From NCBI RefSeq assembly GCF_008641065.1, contig NZ_VTRS01000001.1, positions 496,001 through 560,000 on the forward strand: 64,000 bases of DNA, read 5' to 3'. Below the pieces are notes generated by a model that was not told the DNA's origin, ran no database searches, and saw only the letters and a program-made list of their open reading frames with translations. The position numbers and the translations under genes are program-made. Source of the stretch: Rhabdaerophilum calidifontis (GTDB taxonomy: Bacteria; Pseudomonadota; Alphaproteobacteria; Rhizobiales; Beijerinckiaceae). Position 1 is the stretch's first letter. Each line of letters opens with the position of its first letter. Shown here piece after piece: positions 52,092 to 58,788 of the stretch.

Positions 52092-53459
52092 TCAGCCGGC
52101 ATGGCGCCGGAGCAGATCGAGCAGCGCCGGGTGATCGCCATAGGCGACATTGACACGTATCGCCGGGCGGTAGCCGACGCGGTCGCGGCAGAAGAGGCTG
52201 CCCGGCGCGAGAAAGATTCCTTGCGCCGATGCCTCGCCGGCCAGGGCGAGATCGTCGAGCCCCGCCGGCAGCCCGCACCAGAGGTAATAGCCGCCGGCCG
52301 GGGGGGCAAAATCCGCAAAGCCGATCCGCCGCAGCGCCGCCATCGTCGCCGCCGTCGCATGGGCGACGCGGTCGGTGAGGCGGCGGAGATGGCGGCGATA
52401 ATGCCCCTCGGCGATCAGATCATGGATCAGGCGCTCGACATGGCCGGAACTGTTGACGACGCTCAGCATCTTGATGTCGGTGAGCGAGGCGATGAGCCGG
52501 GGATCGGCGGCGAGGAAGCCGCTGCGCAGGCTCGCGGACAGCGTCTTCGAGAAGGTGCAGACATAGACGACACGCGCGAGCTGATCGAGGGCGGCGAGGC
52601 GGGGCGCAAGCGCCGGCAGGATATCGGCGAAAGGATCATCCTCCACGACCAGGAAGCCGTATCGGTCGGCGATGCGCAGCAGGCGGTGCATCGCTGCCAG
52701 GCTCATCGAGGTGCCGGTCGGGTTATGGGCCAGCGCCTGGGTGAAATAGAGCTTCGGCCGCGTCTCGGCGGCGCGCGCCTCCAGCGCGTCGAGATCCGGC
52801 CCCTCCGTCCCACGCGCGACCGGCACGATCGCCGCCCGCGCGAGCAGCAGCTTGCCGAACAGGGGATAATAGCCGGGGCTGTCGACCAGCACCGCGTCGC
52901 CCGGTTCGAGGAAATGCCGGATCACCAGATCGAGCCCGTGATTGGCGCCGAACGTGGTCAGGATCTGGTCCGGCCCGGCGGCGATGCCGCGTTCGATCAG
53001 CATCTGCGCAAGGCGGGCGCGCAGGGGCTCGTAGCCCTGCGGCGTGCCGTAGCCGTGGTCCGGCGGCGCGTCGCCCCGCTTCCGGCGCGGATGCAGATGC
53101 CGGCCGAGTTCGGAGCCGTCGGTCCAGTCCGAGGGGGGGCGTCCGTCGCCGACCCGCACGGCGTAATGCTTGTCGAGCTGCTCGCGCAGCAGGGAGACAT
53201 GGTCGGTCGCCTCGGCGATCAGCATCGGCCGCGGATTGGCGGGCGGCTTGCGGGCCGTCGCGACGAAGAAGCCCGATCCCGCGCGCGAGACCAGGGTTCC
53301 GGCGGCGACGAGACGCTCGTAGGCCTCGACGATCGTGTTCTTCGAAACCCCGTATTCGCGCGCCGCGGCGCGGACGGAGGCGATGCGCATTCCCGGCGCG
53401 AGATGCCCTTCCGCGATCAGCCGGCTGATCGCCGCAACGACGCGCTCGATCCGTGTCAT
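52092..53459 (-). CDS. MocR-type regulator (GntR HTH fused to aminotransferase domain)
   Basis: A 455-residue transcription factor. Residues 1-70 form a GntR winged helix (IRLIAEGHLAPGMRI-like entry, REYGVSKNTIVEAYERLVAAG). Residues 110-455 form a fold type I aminotransferase domain with LAHNPTGTSMS, VVEDDPFADI and the PLP Lys in YVCTFSKTLSASLRSGF. MocR proteins sense PLP or amine-related ligands in studied cases. It is divergent from the HMG-CoA reductase gene with 168 nt between. An inverted repeat in that gap (53495-53543) is a likely binding site. It is therefore the candidate regulator of the mevalonate operon. Confidence 0.9.
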   Translation of the reverse strand: MTRIERVVAAISRLIAEGHLAPGMRIASVRAAAREYGVSKNTIVEAYERLVAAGTLVSRAGSGFFVATARKPPANPRPMLIAEATDHVSLLREQLDKHYAVRVGDGRPPSDWTDGSELGRHLHPRRKRGDAPPDHGYGTPQGYEPLRARLAQMLIERGIAAGPDQILTTFGANHGLDLVIRHFLEPGDAVLVDSPGYYPLFGKLLLARAAIVPVARGTEGPDLDALEARAAETRPKLYFTQALAHNPTGTSMSLAAMHRLLRIADRYGFLVVEDDPFADILPALAPRLAALDQLARVVYVCTFSKTLSASLRSGFLAADPRLIASLTDIKMLSVVNSSGHVERLIHDLIAEGHYRRHLRRLTDRVAHATAATMAALRRIGFADFAPPAGGYYLWCGLPAGLDDLALAGEASAQGIFLAPGSLFCRDRVGYRPAIRVNVAYGDHPALLDLLRRHAG

Positions 53460-53494
53460 GCCGAGAATGCTCCCTTCTGTGCCTATCGTTCCAA

Positions 53495-53543
53495 GGGGAC
53501 AGTATGGGATCGATCCTGTCAAACCGTACCTTGAATTGTCCCC
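53495..53543. promoter_or_regulatory. Inverted-repeat operator candidate for the MocR regulator
   Basis: GGGGACA (53495-53501) and TGTCCCC (53537-53543) form a perfect inverted repeat with centres 42 bp apart, close to four helical turns. A second palindrome, GGATCGATCC (53507-53516), lies between the arms. It is placed midway between the divergent starts at 53459 and 53628. Confidence 0.5.
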
Positions 53544-53627
53544 AAACCTGCCGCAGGTTCCACGCAATCAAGGCGGCCGGAGCGAAGGCTGCGCCCATGA
53601 GGAAGTGCTTATGCGAGGACGTGCCTG

Positions 53628-54944
53628 ATGACGGTTCCGGCCGAAAACACCACCATGCGCGCGCTTTCGTCGCGCCTTGAGAATTTCCGCAATCTCGACC
53701 CCGCCGAGCGGCTCGACAGGCTCGCCGAGGCGGCCGGGCTCTCGCCGGCCGACCGTGCGCTCCTCGCCGCGCCCGGCGCGCTGCCGCTCGCCCGTGCCAA
53801 CGGCATGATCGAGAACGTGATCGGCACCTTCGAATTGCCGCTCGGCGTCGCGACCAATTTCCAGATCAACGGCCGCGATTATCTGGTGCCGATGGCGGTG
53901 GAGGAACCGTCCGTCGTCGCGGCCGCCTCCTACATGGCGCGGATCGCGCGCGGCTGCGGCGGGTTCGAGACGTCGAGTTCCCTGCCGCTGATGCGCGCGC
54001 AGGTGCAGGTCATCGGCATTACCGATCCGCATGGCGCGCGGCTGAAGCTGTTCCAGGCGCGCGAGGAGATCCTCGCCGCCGCCAATTCCCGCGACAGGAT
54101 GCTGGTCAGCCTCGGCGGCGGCTGCCGCGATATCGAGGTGCATGTGTTCCCGCAGACGCCGCGCGGCGCCATGGTGGTGATGCACCTGATCGTCGATGTC
54201 CGCGACGCGATGGGCGCCAACACGGTCAACACCATGGCCGAGACGGTGGCGCCGATCGTCGCGCGGGTGACCGGCGGCGAGGTGCGCCTGCGGATCCTGT
54301 CCAACCTCGCCGATCTCCGGCTGGCCCGTGCCCGCGTCAGCCTGACCCCGGAAGCCCTCGCAACGCGGGATTTCTCCGGCGAGCGGATGATCAAGGGCAT
54401 TCTCGACGCCTATACCTTCGCGGCGGTCGATCCCTACCGCGCCGCCACCCACAACAAGGGCATCATGAACGGTATCGACCCGGTCGTGGTCGCGACCGGC
54501 AATGATTGGCGGGCGATCGAGGCCGGCGCACATGCCTTCGCGGCCCGCTCGGGCAGCTATACCTCGCTCACCGCCTGGGAGCGGGCGCAGGACGGCCGGC
54601 TCGTCGGAACGCTCGAAATGCCGATGGCGCTCGGCCTCGTCGGCGGCGCGACGAAGACGCATCCGCTGGCGCAGCTTGCGCTGCGCATCCTTGGCGTCCG
54701 TTCGGCGCAGGAACTGGCGGAGGTCACGGTCGCGGTCGGGCTGGCGCAGAACATGGCGGCGCTGCGCGCGCTGGCGACGGAAGGCATCCAGCGCGGCCAT
54801 ATGGCGCTGCATGCGCGCAATATCGCGATCGTCGCTGGCGCCACCGGCGCGGAGATCGATGCGGTCGCTGCCGAACTTGCCGCCAGCCACGATGTCCGCG
54901 CCGACAAGGCGAAGGAGATTCTCGCCCGTCTGCGCGGCGCCTGA
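53628..54944 (+). CDS. mvaA: Class II (degradative) hydroxymethylglutaryl-CoA reductase
   Basis: A 438-residue enzyme that in the catabolic direction turns mevalonate, CoA and two NAD+ into HMG-CoA. The whole sequence closely tracks Pseudomonas mevalonii MvaA as I remember it. Key parts are [13 protein letters not shown] near residue 60 and [11 protein letters not shown] with catalytic Glu about 93. Also present are [25 protein letters not shown] with Lys about 277, ATGNDWRA with Asp about 293, and the C-terminal GHMALHARN with His about 391. Class II type implies NAD(H) use and no membrane anchor. GAGGA lies 10 nt before ATG 53628. It is the first gene of a five-gene operon with the TRAP genes and mvaB. 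Confidence 0.96.
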
Positions 54945-54987
54945 CAATGAACCTGCCCGACAAGAACGATTAAAACCGGAGGAAAGC

Positions 54988-56019
54988 ATGACGATCGATC
55001 GCCGCCACCTGATCAAGACCGCCGGCGCCGCCGCGCTCGGCGCGCCGCTCGCGACGCCGGCCCTCGCACAGAGCGCCGTGAAATGGCGCATGCAGGCGCT
55101 TTGGGACCCCGGCACCACGCCGCAGAAATTCGAGGAGCGGTTCGTCAAGCGCGTCAGCGATCTCACCGGCGGCAAGTTCACCATCGAGCTTTTCGCGGGC
55201 GGCCAGCTCATCCCGGCGCCGCAGGCCTTCGATGCGGTGCGCGGCGGCGCGCTCGAAATGATGAAGACCTTCGACGGCTACGAGGCCGGCAAGATCCCGG
55301 CCTTCGCCTTCACCTCGACCGTGCCGTTCGGCTTCCCCGAATCCGAGCAGTTCGAGGCCTGGTTCTACGAGATGGGCGGGCTCGATCTTGCGCGCGAGGC
55401 CTATGCGCCGGCCGGGCTGTTCTACATCGCGCCGACCGTCTACGGCCAGGAGCCGCTGCATTCCAAGGTGCCGATCGCGAAGATCGCCGATCTCGCCGGC
55501 AAGAAGGGCCGCTTCGTCGGCCTGGCCTCGGCGGTGATGGCGGCGTTCGGGGTTTCGGTCGCGCCGCTGCCGACGAGCGAGGTCTATTCGGCGCTCGACA
55601 AGGGCGTGATCGATCTTGCCGATCGCGGCGACCTGACCGCGAATTTCGAGGCCGGCCTCGCCGAGGTCGCGAAATTCGTGATCCTGCCCGGCATCCACCA
55701 GCCGACGACCGCCACCTCCTATGTCGCGAATCGCGGCGCCTACGAGAAGCTGCCGGCGGAATTCAAGGCGGCGCTCGCGGTGGCGGCGCGCGAGATCTCG
55801 GCCGCGCTCCGGCAGCATATCCTGGTGCAGGATGCGCAGGTCCTGCCGAAATATGTCGCGAAGGGCTGCACCATCCAGCGCTTCGATGCCGCCGACATCG
55901 CCGCGAACCGGCCGAAGGCCGTCGCCGCCTGGCAGAGCGCCACGAAGGACAATCCGCTCGCGAAGAAGATCCTCGAAAGCCAGATGGGCTTCATGAAATC
56001 GCTCGGCGTGCTGGGCTGA
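54988..56019 (+). CDS. TRAP transporter solute-binding protein (DctP family), probably for mevalonate
   Basis: A 343-residue periplasmic binding protein. The N-terminus MTIDRRHLIKTAGAAALGAP has a twin-arginine signal ending near PALAQ. Mature-domain marks of DctP-type proteins are KWRMQALWDPGTTPQKFEER, TGGKFTIELFAGGQLIPAP and the region of the carboxylate-binding Arg around AGKKGRFVGLASA. CGGAGG precedes the ATG, which is 44 nt after mvaA. Its place between HMG-CoA reductase and the membrane subunits suggests mevalonate as ligand. Family membership is clear, but ligand identity is an inference. Confidence 0.92.
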   Translation: MTIDRRHLIKTAGAAALGAPLATPALAQSAVKWRMQALWDPGTTPQKFEERFVKRVSDLTGGKFTIELFAGGQLIPAPQAFDAVRGGALEMMKTFDGYEAGKIPAFAFTSTVPFGFPESEQFEAWFYEMGGLDLAREAYAPAGLFYIAPTVYGQEPLHSKVPIAKIADLAGKKGRFVGLASAVMAAFGVSVAPLPTSEVYSALDKGVIDLADRGDLTANFEAGLAEVAKFVILPGIHQPTTATSYVANRGAYEKLPAEFKAALAVAAREISAALRQHILVQDAQVLPKYVAKGCTIQRFDAADIAANRPKAVAAWQSATKDNPLAKKILESQMGFMKSLGVLG

Positions 56020-56086
56020 TCCCTTGAGGACTGGGTGGCGGGGAGCGATCTCCGCCACCGGTTTTCCCTTTCCGCAAGGAAACCGC

Positions 56087-56608
56087 ATGCCTCCGCTCGT
56101 CTCGCTATTCGTGGGCGCCGTCACGACGCTCAACCGCGCAGCCTTTCATGGCGCCGGGCTGCTGATCTACGCGATCGTGCCAATCATGCTGATCGATGTC
56201 GTGATGCGCTATGCCTTCAACAGCCCGACCGATTGGGGCATGGAACTCGCGGTGCTGCTGTTCGGGCCGTATTTCCTGCTCGCCGGCCCCTATGTTCTGC
56301 ATCTCAAGGGCCATGTGGCGATGGATATCCTGCGCCAGCGGCTCTCAATGCGCGCCAACCGGCTCTTCGAACTGGTGAACATCCCGATCATCATCGCCTT
56401 CGCGGCGATCCTGCTCAGCTATTCGCTGCCGCTGGCGATCGATTCGTTCAACTACCGCGAAACCTCGTTCTCGGCCTGGAACCCGCCGATCTGGTGGGTG
56501 AAGGCGGCGGTGCCGCTGGCGCTGGCGCTGCTGATGCTCCAGGCGGCTGCGGAATTCCTGCGGGTGCTGTTCCGCGACCCCGCGCTCGAGGCGCATCCCC
56601 ATGGCTGA
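56087..56608 (+). CDS. TRAP transporter small membrane subunit (DctQ family)
   Basis: A 173-residue protein with four predicted helices, including GAGLLIYAIVPIMLIDVVMR, ELAVLLFGPYFLLAGPYVL, IPIIIAFAAILLSYSLPLA and WVKAAVPLALALLMLQAAAE. The DctQ-type loop LKGHVAMDILRQRL lies between the second and third. The start 56087 has AAGGAAACCGC upstream; the longer frame to 56024 lacks one. It overlaps the next gene by 8 nt, typical of a Q-M pair. Confidence 0.9.
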   Translation: MPPLVSLFVGAVTTLNRAAFHGAGLLIYAIVPIMLIDVVMRYAFNSPTDWGMELAVLLFGPYFLLAGPYVLHLKGHVAMDILRQRLSMRANRLFELVNIPIIIAFAAILLSYSLPLAIDSFNYRETSFSAWNPPIWWVKAAVPLALALLMLQAAAEFLRVLFRDPALEAHPHG

Positions 56609-57929
56609 GCCGTTTCTCGGATCGACCGGCATCCTCATCGTGATGTTCGGCGGGCTGACCCTGTTCATGATGACGGGGCTGCCGATCGCTTTCGTGCTCG
56701 GCGGGCTGTCGCTGATCATCGCGGTGACGCTGTGGAACCCGCAATCCGTCATCCTGCTGGTGCTGCAGATCTTCGACACGATGAAATCGGAGGCGCTGCT
56801 CGGCATCCCGCTCTACATCCTCATGGCGGCCTTGCTCTCGCGCTCGGGGGTGATCGAGAAGCTCTACCGCGCCATGGAATTGTGGTTCGGGCGGCTCCGG
56901 GGCGGGCTCGCGGTCGGCACGGTGGTGATCTGCGTCATCATGGCGGCGATGACCGGCGTGGTCGGCGCGGCGGTGACGGCGATGGGCATGCTGGCGCTGC
57001 CGGAAATGCTGCGCCGGCGCTATTCTCCCGAACTCGCGACCGGGACGATCTGCGCGGCCGGCACGCTCGGCATCCTGATCCCGCCCTCGGTGCTCACCAT
57101 CGTCTATGCGGTGACGGCGCAGGTTTCGATCGGCAAGATGCTGATCGCCGGCATCGTGCCGGGGATCATGCTGGCGACGCTGTTCATCGGCTATATTCTC
57201 GTGCTGTCCTGGCTCAGGCCGGAGGTCGCGCCGCTTGCGGATGATTTCGAGCCGGCGCCGCTCGGCGCGCGGCTTGCCGCGCTCGGGGCGCTGATCCTGC
57301 CGAGCCTGATCATCGTGCTCATTCTCGGCTCGATCTTCCTCGGCGTCGCGACGCCGACGGAGGCCGCCGCCGTCGGCGTGCTCGGGGCGATGGCCGCGGC
57401 GCTCATCGAGGGGCGGCTTACGCGGGAGACGCTCGCCTCCTCGGCCTTCGACACGGTGAAGGCCACCGCGATGATCCTGTGGATCACCATCGGCGCCAAG
57501 GCCTATGTCGCGATCTTCACCGGATTGGGGGGCGCGGACGCGCTGCTCGGCTTCATCAAGGGGCTCGACGTCGCGCCGATGCTGATCCTCGCCGTGATGA
57601 TGCTGATCCTGATCTTTCTCGGCACCGTGCTGGACGAGATCGGCATCATCCTGCTCACGGTGCCGGTCTTCCTGCCGATCGTGAAGTTTCTCGGCTTCGA
57701 CGAGATCTGGTTCGGCGTGCTCTACGCGATCACGATCCAGATGGGCTATATCTCGCCGCCCTTCGGCTACACGCTGTTCTACATGAAGGGCACGCTGCCG
57801 CCCGGCATGTCGATGGGGGTCGTCTATCGCGGGATCACGCCCTTCATGCTGCTTCAGGGGGTCGGCCTGCTGCTTGCCATGGCCTTCCCGGCGCTGATGA
57901 CGGTGCTGCCGGCGCTGATGGTGAAATAG
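56601..57929 (+). CDS. TRAP transporter large permease subunit (DctM family)
   Basis: A 442-residue permease with about twelve helices of the DctM/ion-transporter superfamily. It uses the sodium gradient to take up the ligand delivered by the binding protein. Family marks are GIPLYILMAALLSRSG, GVVGAAVTAMGMLALPEMLRR, GTLGILIPPSVLTIVY and GVATPTEAAAVGVLGAM; QMGYISPPFGYTLFYMKG lies near the end. Its start overlaps dctQ by 8 nt, and mvaB begins 4 nt after its stop, so the transporter is tightly coupled to the catabolic gene. Confidence 0.94.
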   Translation: MAEPFLGSTGILIVMFGGLTLFMMTGLPIAFVLGGLSLIIAVTLWNPQSVILLVLQIFDTMKSEALLGIPLYILMAALLSRSGVIEKLYRAMELWFGRLRGGLAVGTVVICVIMAAMTGVVGAAVTAMGMLALPEMLRRRYSPELATGTICAAGTLGILIPPSVLTIVYAVTAQVSIGKMLIAGIVPGIMLATLFIGYILVLSWLRPEVAPLADDFEPAPLGARLAALGALILPSLIIVLILGSIFLGVATPTEAAAVGVLGAMAAALIEGRLTRETLASSAFDTVKATAMILWITIGAKAYVAIFTGLGGADALLGFIKGLDVAPMLILAVMMLILIFLGTVLDEIGIILLTVPVFLPIVKFLGFDEIWFGVLYAITIQMGYISPPFGYTLFYMKGTLPPGMSMGVVYRGITPFMLLQGVGLLLAMAFPALMTVLPALMVK

Positions 57930-57933
57930 GCTG

Positions 57934-58788
57934 ATGGATGCGGCGGTGATCGTCGAGGTCGGCCCGCGCGACGGGCTCCAGAACGAACCGGGCTTCGTCG
58001 CGACCGCTGACAAGCTGGCGCTGATCGGGCGCCTCGCCGCCAGCGGCCTGAGCCGGATCGAGGCGACGGCTTTCGTCGCGCCGAAATGGGTGCCGCAGAT
58101 GGCGGACCATGACGCGGTGATGCGCGGCGTGCCGCGGCGCGCCGGCCTCGTCTATTCGGCGCTGGTGCCGAACGTGCAGGGCGCTGCGGCGGCCATCGCG
58201 GCCGGCGCGGACGAACTCGCGATCTTCACCGCCGCCTCCGAGAGTTTTTGCCGGCGCAATATCAATTGCACGATCGCCGAAAGCCTCGAGCGCTTCCGCC
58301 CGGTAATGGCGCTTGCGGCCGAGCACGGCCTGCCGGTGCGCGGCTATGTCTCCTGCGTGACCGATTGCCCCTATGAGGGCGCCGTCGCTCCGGCGGCGGT
58401 CACGCGGGTGGCGCTGGCCCTGCGCGACCTCGGCTGCACCGAGATTGCGCTCGGCGAGACGCTCGGCCGCGCGGAACCGGGCCGTGTCGCGGCGCTGGTC
58501 GCGGATGTCGCCGCTTCGCTTCCGCCGGAGCGGCTGGCGGGGCATTTCCACGATACCGGCGGGCAGGCGCTGGCGAGCATCGATGTCTGCCTTGCGCATG
58601 GCATCCGCGTCTTCGACGCCGCGGCGGCCGGGCTCGGCGGCTGCCCCTACGCGCCTGGCGCCAAGGGCAATGTCGCGACCGGGCGGGTGGCGCGGCATCT
58701 CGCGGCGCGCGGCTTCAGGACGGGGATCGACGCGGAACGCCTCGCCGAGGCGGAGGCCTTCGCGGCCGCCCTCCGCGGCGCGGGCTGA
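57934..58788 (+). CDS. mvaB: Hydroxymethylglutaryl-CoA lyase
   Basis: A 284-residue TIM-barrel lyase that splits HMG-CoA to acetyl-CoA and acetoacetate. Catalytic Arg12 and Asp13 are in VEVGPRDGLQNE, and SRIEATAFVAPKWVPQMAD is nearly canonical. The metal histidines are in GHFHDTGGQ, and the signature loop with Cys237 is GLGGCPYAPGAKGN. The usual SLGDTIG segment reads ALGETLG, with Glu175 in place of Asp. It is the last gene of the operon and completes a mevalonate breakdown route with mvaA. No acetoacetate-activating enzyme is present in the window. Confidence 0.93.
   Translation: MDAAVIVEVGPRDGLQNEPGFVATADKLALIGRLAASGLSRIEATAFVAPKWVPQMADHDAVMRGVPRRAGLVYSALVPNVQGAAAAIAAGADELAIFTAASESFCRRNINCTIAESLERFRPVMALAAEHGLPVRGYVSCVTDCPYEGAVAPAAVTRVALALRDLGCTEIALGETLGRAEPGRVAALVADVAASLPPERLAGHFHDTGGQALASIDVCLAHGIRVFDAAAAGLGGCPYAPGAKGNVATGRVARHLAARGFRTGIDAERLAEAEAFAAALRGAG

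Follow-up and report, generated by a model that had tools for sequence, protein, structure and literature searches.

The locus described here lies in a 64,000-nucleotide stretch of the Rhabdaerophilum calidifontis genome (G000:C11:496001-560000; this whole stretch is termed the window), the genome itself comprising 3.09 Mb on 19 contigs and being rated 100% complete. The locus consists of six genes: mocR, which codes for a MocR-family regulator, is divergent from a closely packed series, mvaA-dctP-dctQ-dctM-mvaB, coding for a 3-hydroxy-3-methylglutaryl-coenzyme A (HMG-CoA) reductase, the three subunits of a tripartite ATP-independent periplasmic (TRAP) transporter and an HMG-CoA lyase (Table 1). 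From mvaA to mvaB the successive genes are separated by 43 nt and 67 nt, overlap by 8 nt and are again separated by 4 nt. The gene order, strands and spacing reported in the first-pass annotation are as claimed, save that the mvaA-dctP gap is 43 nt in place of 44, and the gene identities are upheld by curated NCBIfam and Pfam models (DctP, DctQ, DctM, HMGL-like, GntR and Aminotran_1_2 all score over their Pfam cut-offs). The arrangement is beyond chance, since the identical six-gene order recurs in six other loci (L011, L030, L031, L032, L117 and L119; the mvaB of L032 aligned only partly). We read the locus as an operon for the scavenging and catabolism of mevalonate, with import by DctPQM and control by the divergent MocR, and give this reading a probability of roughly 0.85.

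Table 1. Features of the mevalonate locus, numbered by position in the window (PLP, pyridoxal 5'-phosphate; NAD, nicotinamide adenine dinucleotide)
Feature	Position	Strand	Basis or remark
mocR, MocR-family regulator	52092-53459	-	Pfam GntR (DNA-binding) and Aminotran_1_2 (PLP-binding aminotransferase-like); proposed operon regulator
Predicted MocR operator	53496-53532	+	GGGACAGT, 18 nt, AACCGTACCTT; predicted from sequence conservation alone
mvaA, class II degradative NAD-type HMG-CoA reductase	53628-54944	+	TIGR00532, solved relatives, catalytic residues
dctP, TRAP solute-binding protein, lactate / 2-oxo-acid branch	54988-56019	+	Pfam DctP; paired Arg at N-terminus
Inverted repeat (stem-loop), dctP-dctQ gap	56034-56059	+	Terminator-like scan and folding
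dctQ, TRAP small permease subunit	56087-56608	+	Pfam DctQ; start picked by position
dctM, TRAP large permease subunit	56601-57929	+	TIGR00786, 308.4 bits; Pfam DctM
mvaB, HMG-CoA lyase	57934-58788	+	PRK05692/NF004283, 403.9 bits; HMGL-like over Pfam cut-off

The direction of the pathway is indicated by MvaA and by the gene content of the genome. MvaA scores 438.6 bits against the 'degradative' model TIGR00532 (cut-off 259.95), versus 47.1 bits against the NADPH model TIGR00533 (cut-off 441.8). The catalytic Glu, Lys, Asp and His and the NAD-selecting Asp (Asp156 in the window) are kept in all 50 members of the MvaA clade, their roles being those that we presume from the numbering of the Pseudomonas mevalonii enzyme; with the cut-off of the curated model exceeded and Asp156 present, MvaA classifies as a degradative class II reductase of the NAD type. 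Its closest solved chains, 6dio/6eeu, 1qax/4i4b and 6p7k, are assigned in a figure legend of PMC12292504 to Delftia, P. mevalonii and Burkholderia cenocepacia, respectively. A genome search for the 1-deoxy-D-xylulose 5-phosphate (DXP) and mevalonate pathways, which the first-pass annotation had proposed, recovered Dxs and the DXR-like enzyme DRL (G000:C11:43274-43768) over their cut-offs and no match to either HMG-CoA synthase or mevalonate kinase. The same search did not find Dxr; DRL is a substitute for Dxr, and absence of the methylerythritol phosphate (MEP) pathway, which was considered once Dxr proved missing, was ruled out by the presence of DRL and Dxs. Since HMG-CoA synthase and mevalonate kinase are unmatched while Dxs and DRL are present, mevalonate is unlikely to be an isoprenoid intermediate in this organism. 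With mvaA and an HMG-CoA lyase gene in one operon, as judged from the spacing, and neither of these two biosynthetic enzymes matched, the locus is of the mvaAB type. The catabolic direction of flux in the cell, as originally proposed, is thus a well-supported prediction.

The association of MocR with mvaA is conserved in many Proteobacteria. Among 41 genomes (the host's own and 40 relatives, 16 of which share its genus), MvaA exceeds the cut-off in three, two of them among the 16 congeners, and a weak fragment in a fourth stays below it. The same three genomes have a MocR of at least 50% identity (58% and 56% in the two relatives), the next full-length matches being 36-41% identical. In the best 80 of 590 confirmed MvaA matches from a search of genome contigs, 30 loci, all proteobacterial, have a divergent MocR gene adjoining mvaA. 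The plasmid collection yielded 37 records, and the 14 that were fetched added 12 new MocR loci, a duplicate of L015 (L114, dropped) and one locus, L123, that lacks MocR. A tree built from 96 MvaA rows puts the window in a group of 50 proteobacterial rows with 100/100 support, 43 of which have MocR adjoining mvaA; a separate group of three, also supported at 100/100, comprises L121, where MocR adjoins mvaA, L122, where it lies in the same cluster and adjoins dctP, and L123. The MocR label requires 9 changes on this tree, versus 32.2 in shuffles. L123 (a Sagittula stellata plasmid) and L035 (Roseovarius litorisediminis) possess another TRAP system, with a DctP 26-28% identical, and a GntR-type regulator that replaces MocR. 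For two HMG-CoA reductase matches on haloarchaeal plasmids (H19 and H23), the annotation mentions in addition an 'acyclic terpene utilization AtuA family protein'.

The regulator combines a GntR domain with an aminotransferase-like domain bearing the PLP lysine, and is a MocR protein by this architecture. This lysine, Lys305, is present in 45/45 aligned MocR rows, and Asn246, Asp275, Arg312 and Arg435 are invariant among the rows having a letter there; hence PLP binding and the carboxylate arginine are predicted to be intact, with the residue roles being those we assume by analogy with aminotransferases. It stays below the cut-offs of the named NCBIfam MocR subfamilies: PdxR (230.5 of 320 bits), YczR (211.1 of 487.4), rhizopine MocR (176.5 of 650), EhuR (148.8 of 480) and GabR (98.2 of 600).

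The gap between mocR and mvaA contains a putative operator for this regulator. We drew its consensus from the mocR-mvaA gaps of 33 loci (the 30 above, the window, and G014 and G016, the two congeners with MvaA), in 22 of which the commonest 8-mer, ACTGTACC, occurs; no 8-mer was found in more than 7 gaps across 200 dinucleotide shuffles. The predicted layout is GGTACAGT, N17/18, AACTGTACCTT; 20 of the 40 loci with it have a second GGTACAGT that begins 18-19 nt past the first base of the centre. Scored at no more than 3 mismatches in 19 positions, the two-box form occurs in 27/33 discovery loci and never in 300 shuffles of the 33 (when the 19 non-alphaproteobacterial loci were run separately, a shuffled set reached at most 1). 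At this threshold it is absent upstream of all 49 mvaA genes that lack a MocR, 9 of them proteobacterial and the remainder of other phyla, and from 2074 further segments (220 nt each) of the same loci, one of which has it at 4 mismatches. Because the consensus was drawn from the discovery loci, the 12 later-fetched loci served as a check: 10 carry the form at up to 3 mismatches, versus a mean of 0.001 and at most 1 in 1000 shuffled sets. This check set includes close kin of discovery loci (e.g. L118 and L120), L121 (1 mismatch) and L122 (2 mismatches) not being close kin. When up to 4 mismatches are allowed, 40 of the 45 loci taken together contain the two-box form. Made degenerate so as to admit the window's own site, the pattern matches the genome, with both strands scanned and no more than 3 mismatches, at the predicted operator alone; a reversed control pattern also matches one place. 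An operator-like site of repeated boxes thus appears to be conserved near the regulator's own gene; its box layouts are among those that a survey of the family gives for MocR regulators, which include inverted pairs, direct-plus-inverted and alternating three-box layouts (PMC5320631). Control of the operon by MocR, which had previously been only inferred, gains real support as a prediction from the conserved divergent adjacency, the co-occurrence in the same 3/41 genomes and the shared putative operator.

The transporter has the DctP, DctQ and DctM subunits by Pfam and is a TRAP system. The closest solved chain to DctP is 2zzv, which we take to be TTHA0766, in agreement with the lactate-binding TTHA0766 constructs that match next. 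For TakP, PMC1839085 names Arg177, Tyr100, Gln156, Glu214, Trp215 and Glu240. Mapped indirectly, through a profile alignment with 4yzz, these positions correspond in the window to Arg175, Gln154, Asp212, Arg213 and Gln238. Arg175, Asp212, Arg213 and Gln238 are invariant in 13 aligned DctP orthologues and position 154 is Gln or Glu; loss of a cation ligand (TakP Gln156) was considered and ruled out, as this alignment puts Gln/Glu in that column. Position 213, Arg in all 13 orthologues, is Phe in the lactate binder and Trp in 4yzz. Mevalonate is a hydroxy-monocarboxylate, and we infer that it may be bound by DctP much like lactate, with Arg213 adapting the pocket.

Across the MocR loci the mocR-mvaA pair is accompanied by transporters of distinct kinds. 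The 44 such loci besides the window comprise 12 with TRAP, 21 with tripartite tricarboxylate, 3 with Liv-type ATP-binding cassette (ABC) and 2 with sugar-type ABC transporters, and 6 without a recognised one; in these counts rows were regrouped by hand, Liv-type matches of 26-37% were excluded and families were verified by Pfam on representatives. The six are L010, L025, L027, L087, L116 and L121, of which L027 and L087 end less than 1.8 kb from mvaA; in L121 the annotation shows an ABC binding protein following mvaA. The kind of transporter differs even within one genus, since in the congener G014 a Liv-type ABC transporter and mvaB come after mocR-mvaA; in the other congener, G016, the contig ends 1.3 kb past mvaA. 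Such exchange next to a constant pair fits mevalonate as the shared cargo. In L122 (Nitratireductor), mocR is divergent from dctP-dctQ-dctM-mvaA-mvaB, with the operator-like site upstream of dctP; relative to the window, its MvaA is 54%, its DctP 69% and its MocR 53% identical. That regulator, site and TRAP system stay together here though the reductase is of a different clade is the best single argument for the transporter serving the mevalonate pathway. Taken with the gene context and the transporter exchange, this makes the earlier proposal that DctPQM transports mevalonate plausible. A gene for an SMP-30/gluconolactonase-like protein is found near mvaA in five loci: L004 (11286-12317), L014, L029, L007 and L113; by tblastn it is in reach in 3/44 loci, one being the query, with L007 and L113 recognised by Pfam or annotation. 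These genes would possibly suit mevalonolactone hydrolysis.

MvaB is the sole HMG-CoA lyase over the curated cut-off in the genome, three further matches lying below it, and its gene is in reach of mvaA in 25 of the 44 MocR loci besides the window. For the activation of acetoacetate, the genome codes for one SCOT/PcaI-family CoA-transferase over the cut-off, on contig 13, which could act on it; acetoacetyl-CoA synthetase was rejected as the activator, its best match (273 bits) being under the cut-off of 521, and the CoA-transferase is the better candidate. The first-pass description of the locus as self-contained needs qualifying, since this candidate CoA-transferase lies on another contig. 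In L020, L026 and L116 a family III CoA-transferase gene lies near mvaA and mvaB, and its product may have acetoacetate or some similar acid as its substrate.

From the gene content and order, catalytic residues, genome context and conservation of mocR and of the operator-like site, we infer the following scheme, in which the cargo, the flux direction within the cell, the binding of MocR to the operator and the inducer are predictions. DctP would capture mevalonate in the periplasm and DctQM would import it; MvaA would then oxidise it to HMG-CoA with NAD and coenzyme A, and MvaB would split this into acetyl-CoA and acetoacetate, the latter being one that the CoA-transferase encoded elsewhere in the genome could activate. 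MocR would bind the predicted operator and control the operon, with the substrate or a close metabolite as its signal. It is conceivable, at somewhat less than even odds, that MocR is a dedicated natural mevalonate sensor: with its PLP site and the carboxylate-clamp Arg435 kept, it would respond to an amine-less ligand, either with the carboxylate of mevalonate docked in place or with mevalonolactone or HMG-CoA as the molecule sensed. It would then define a regulon of the MocR type that extends through alpha-, beta- and gammaproteobacteria and governs four interchangeable kinds of transporter.

Several observations weigh against this scheme. The two-box form is missing even at 4 mismatches in 5/45 loci (L005, L025, L027, L033 and L111), each of which keeps one box within 1 mismatch of ACTGTACC, and a promoter scan found no sigma-70-like promoter in the mocR-mvaA gap, its two sigma-70-like sites lying inside or at the end of coding regions. 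MocR was not found beside mvaA in 9/39 proteobacterial loci among the best 80 of 590 (L016, L028, L034-L037, L041, L048 and L054). MocR proteins of known ligand respond to amines or PLP (in part PMC5320631); as mevalonate lacks an amine, a compound other than mevalonate may be the inducer. MvaB could also serve leucine catabolism, and the neighbourhoods searched showed no mvaB in 19/44 relatives, some of them cut short by contig ends. Lastly, the search of open-access literature yielded no binding, transport, growth or expression data on a mevalonate TRAP system.

Three other explanations were weighed. The operon might degrade mevalonate that enters otherwise, with DctPQM importing another small hydroxy- or oxo-monocarboxylate. 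The nearest solved relatives of DctP, whose ligands are lactate, 2-oxo acids or picolinate and which are not known to bind mevalonate, favour such a cargo, as does the retention by alignment of the TakP carboxylate arginine (R175) and the acid/amide residues of the cation site (D212, Q238, Q/E154). The invariant Arg213, the position of the TRAP genes between mvaA and mvaB, where relatives have other transporters, and the Nitratireductor locus, where they come after mocR and its operator-like site, argue otherwise, leaving this a small though appreciable chance. That MocR is a neighbour kept for other reasons might be suspected, given how widespread MocR genes are and how often they occur in multiple paralogous copies (PMC5320631); given the conserved divergent adjacency, the co-occurrence among genomes and the controls on the predicted operator, we consider it improbable. 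A biosynthetic role of MvaA, with the reductase making mevalonate for isoprenoids, could draw on the more distant MvaA relatives that the tree places in Archaea, which are presumably biosynthetic. It is unlikely to the point of being negligible, in view of the match to the degradative model, Asp156, the HMG-CoA lyase in the same operon, the unmatched HMG-CoA synthase and mevalonate kinase, and the MEP enzymes Dxs and DRL, the last two points having served to reject this direction.

Beyond the core, some features of the surroundings deserve mention. A terminator scan found no terminator-like site 3' of mvaB; its one site, the dctP-dctQ stem-loop, compares with a shuffle mean of 2.2 and is not beyond chance by that scan. 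The lowest-energy fold of the dctP-dctQ gap is a long-stem hairpin in 11/13 TRAP-type loci (without a shuffle control), L015 and L112 folding otherwise; this hairpin may raise the level of the binding protein over that of the permease. A convergent zincin-like gene extends from 58798 onward. The G+C content runs through the locus without a break, so that composition gives no sign of recent acquisition, yet MvaA is found in only 2/16 other genomes of the genus.

The locus supplies candidates for both the importer and the regulator of mevalonate catabolism, with a candidate operator of 37 bases. Ecologically, it points to bacteria of soil, plant-associated and marine habitats for which isoprenoid precursors released by eukaryotes and archaea may serve as food. 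Should mevalonate prove to be its signal, MocR would offer mevalonate engineering, where an AraC-based biosensor has been used (PMC13064465), a natural biosensor, and would exemplify a MocR protein that does without an amine ligand.

Enzymes by which bacteria degrade mevalonate were described decades ago, mvaAB being the mevalonate catabolic operon of P. mevalonii. The regulator, the predicted operator and the interchangeable transporters appear to be new as far as our literature search reaches: among the matches listed from the titles and abstract starts of open-access literature, there was no paper on a mevalonate TRAP transporter or on MocR control of mevalonate genes, and the words mevalonate, hydroxymethylglutaryl, HMG-CoA and mvaA are absent from the main text of the MocR survey (PMC5320631). 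The Pseudomonas mvaAB system and the fetched loci L019, L020, L022, L026 and L029 share with the window the degradative NAD-type reductase and the HMG-CoA lyase. The fetched Pseudomonas loci also have the divergent MocR and the operator-like site at 0-1 mismatches; they differ in having a tripartite tricarboxylate transporter after mvaB, whereas the window has TRAP genes between mvaA and mvaB. The megaplasmid of Ruegeria pomeroyi DSS-3 (SPO_RS20660-SPO_RS20640) has the order mocR, mvaA, dctP, dctQ, dctM in common with the window, and the operator-like site at 1 mismatch, but no HMG-CoA lyase is annotated within the 15-kb stretch. The Ruegeria HMG-CoA reductase, 70% identical to the window's MvaA, has been purified, is predominantly NADH-dependent and was also assayed for mevalonate oxidation, in a paper whose main text has no word beginning 'catabol' (PMC12292504). 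We take it to be the product of this locus, now under another accession, because WP_011241944.1 falls numerically between the dctP and mocR proteins of the locus. DctP resembles the TakP / TTHA0766 branch, which binds pyruvate and lactate, in sequence family, carboxylate Arg and, by alignment, cation-site positions, and is unlike it in having Arg213 in place of Trp/Phe in all 13 orthologues. Likewise, the window's MocR shares its domain architecture, PLP residues and predicted repeated-box operator with the MocR regulators of GABA (gamma-aminobutyric acid), taurine, ectoine and PLP metabolism, and is set apart from these by its association with a mevalonate pathway that has no amine.

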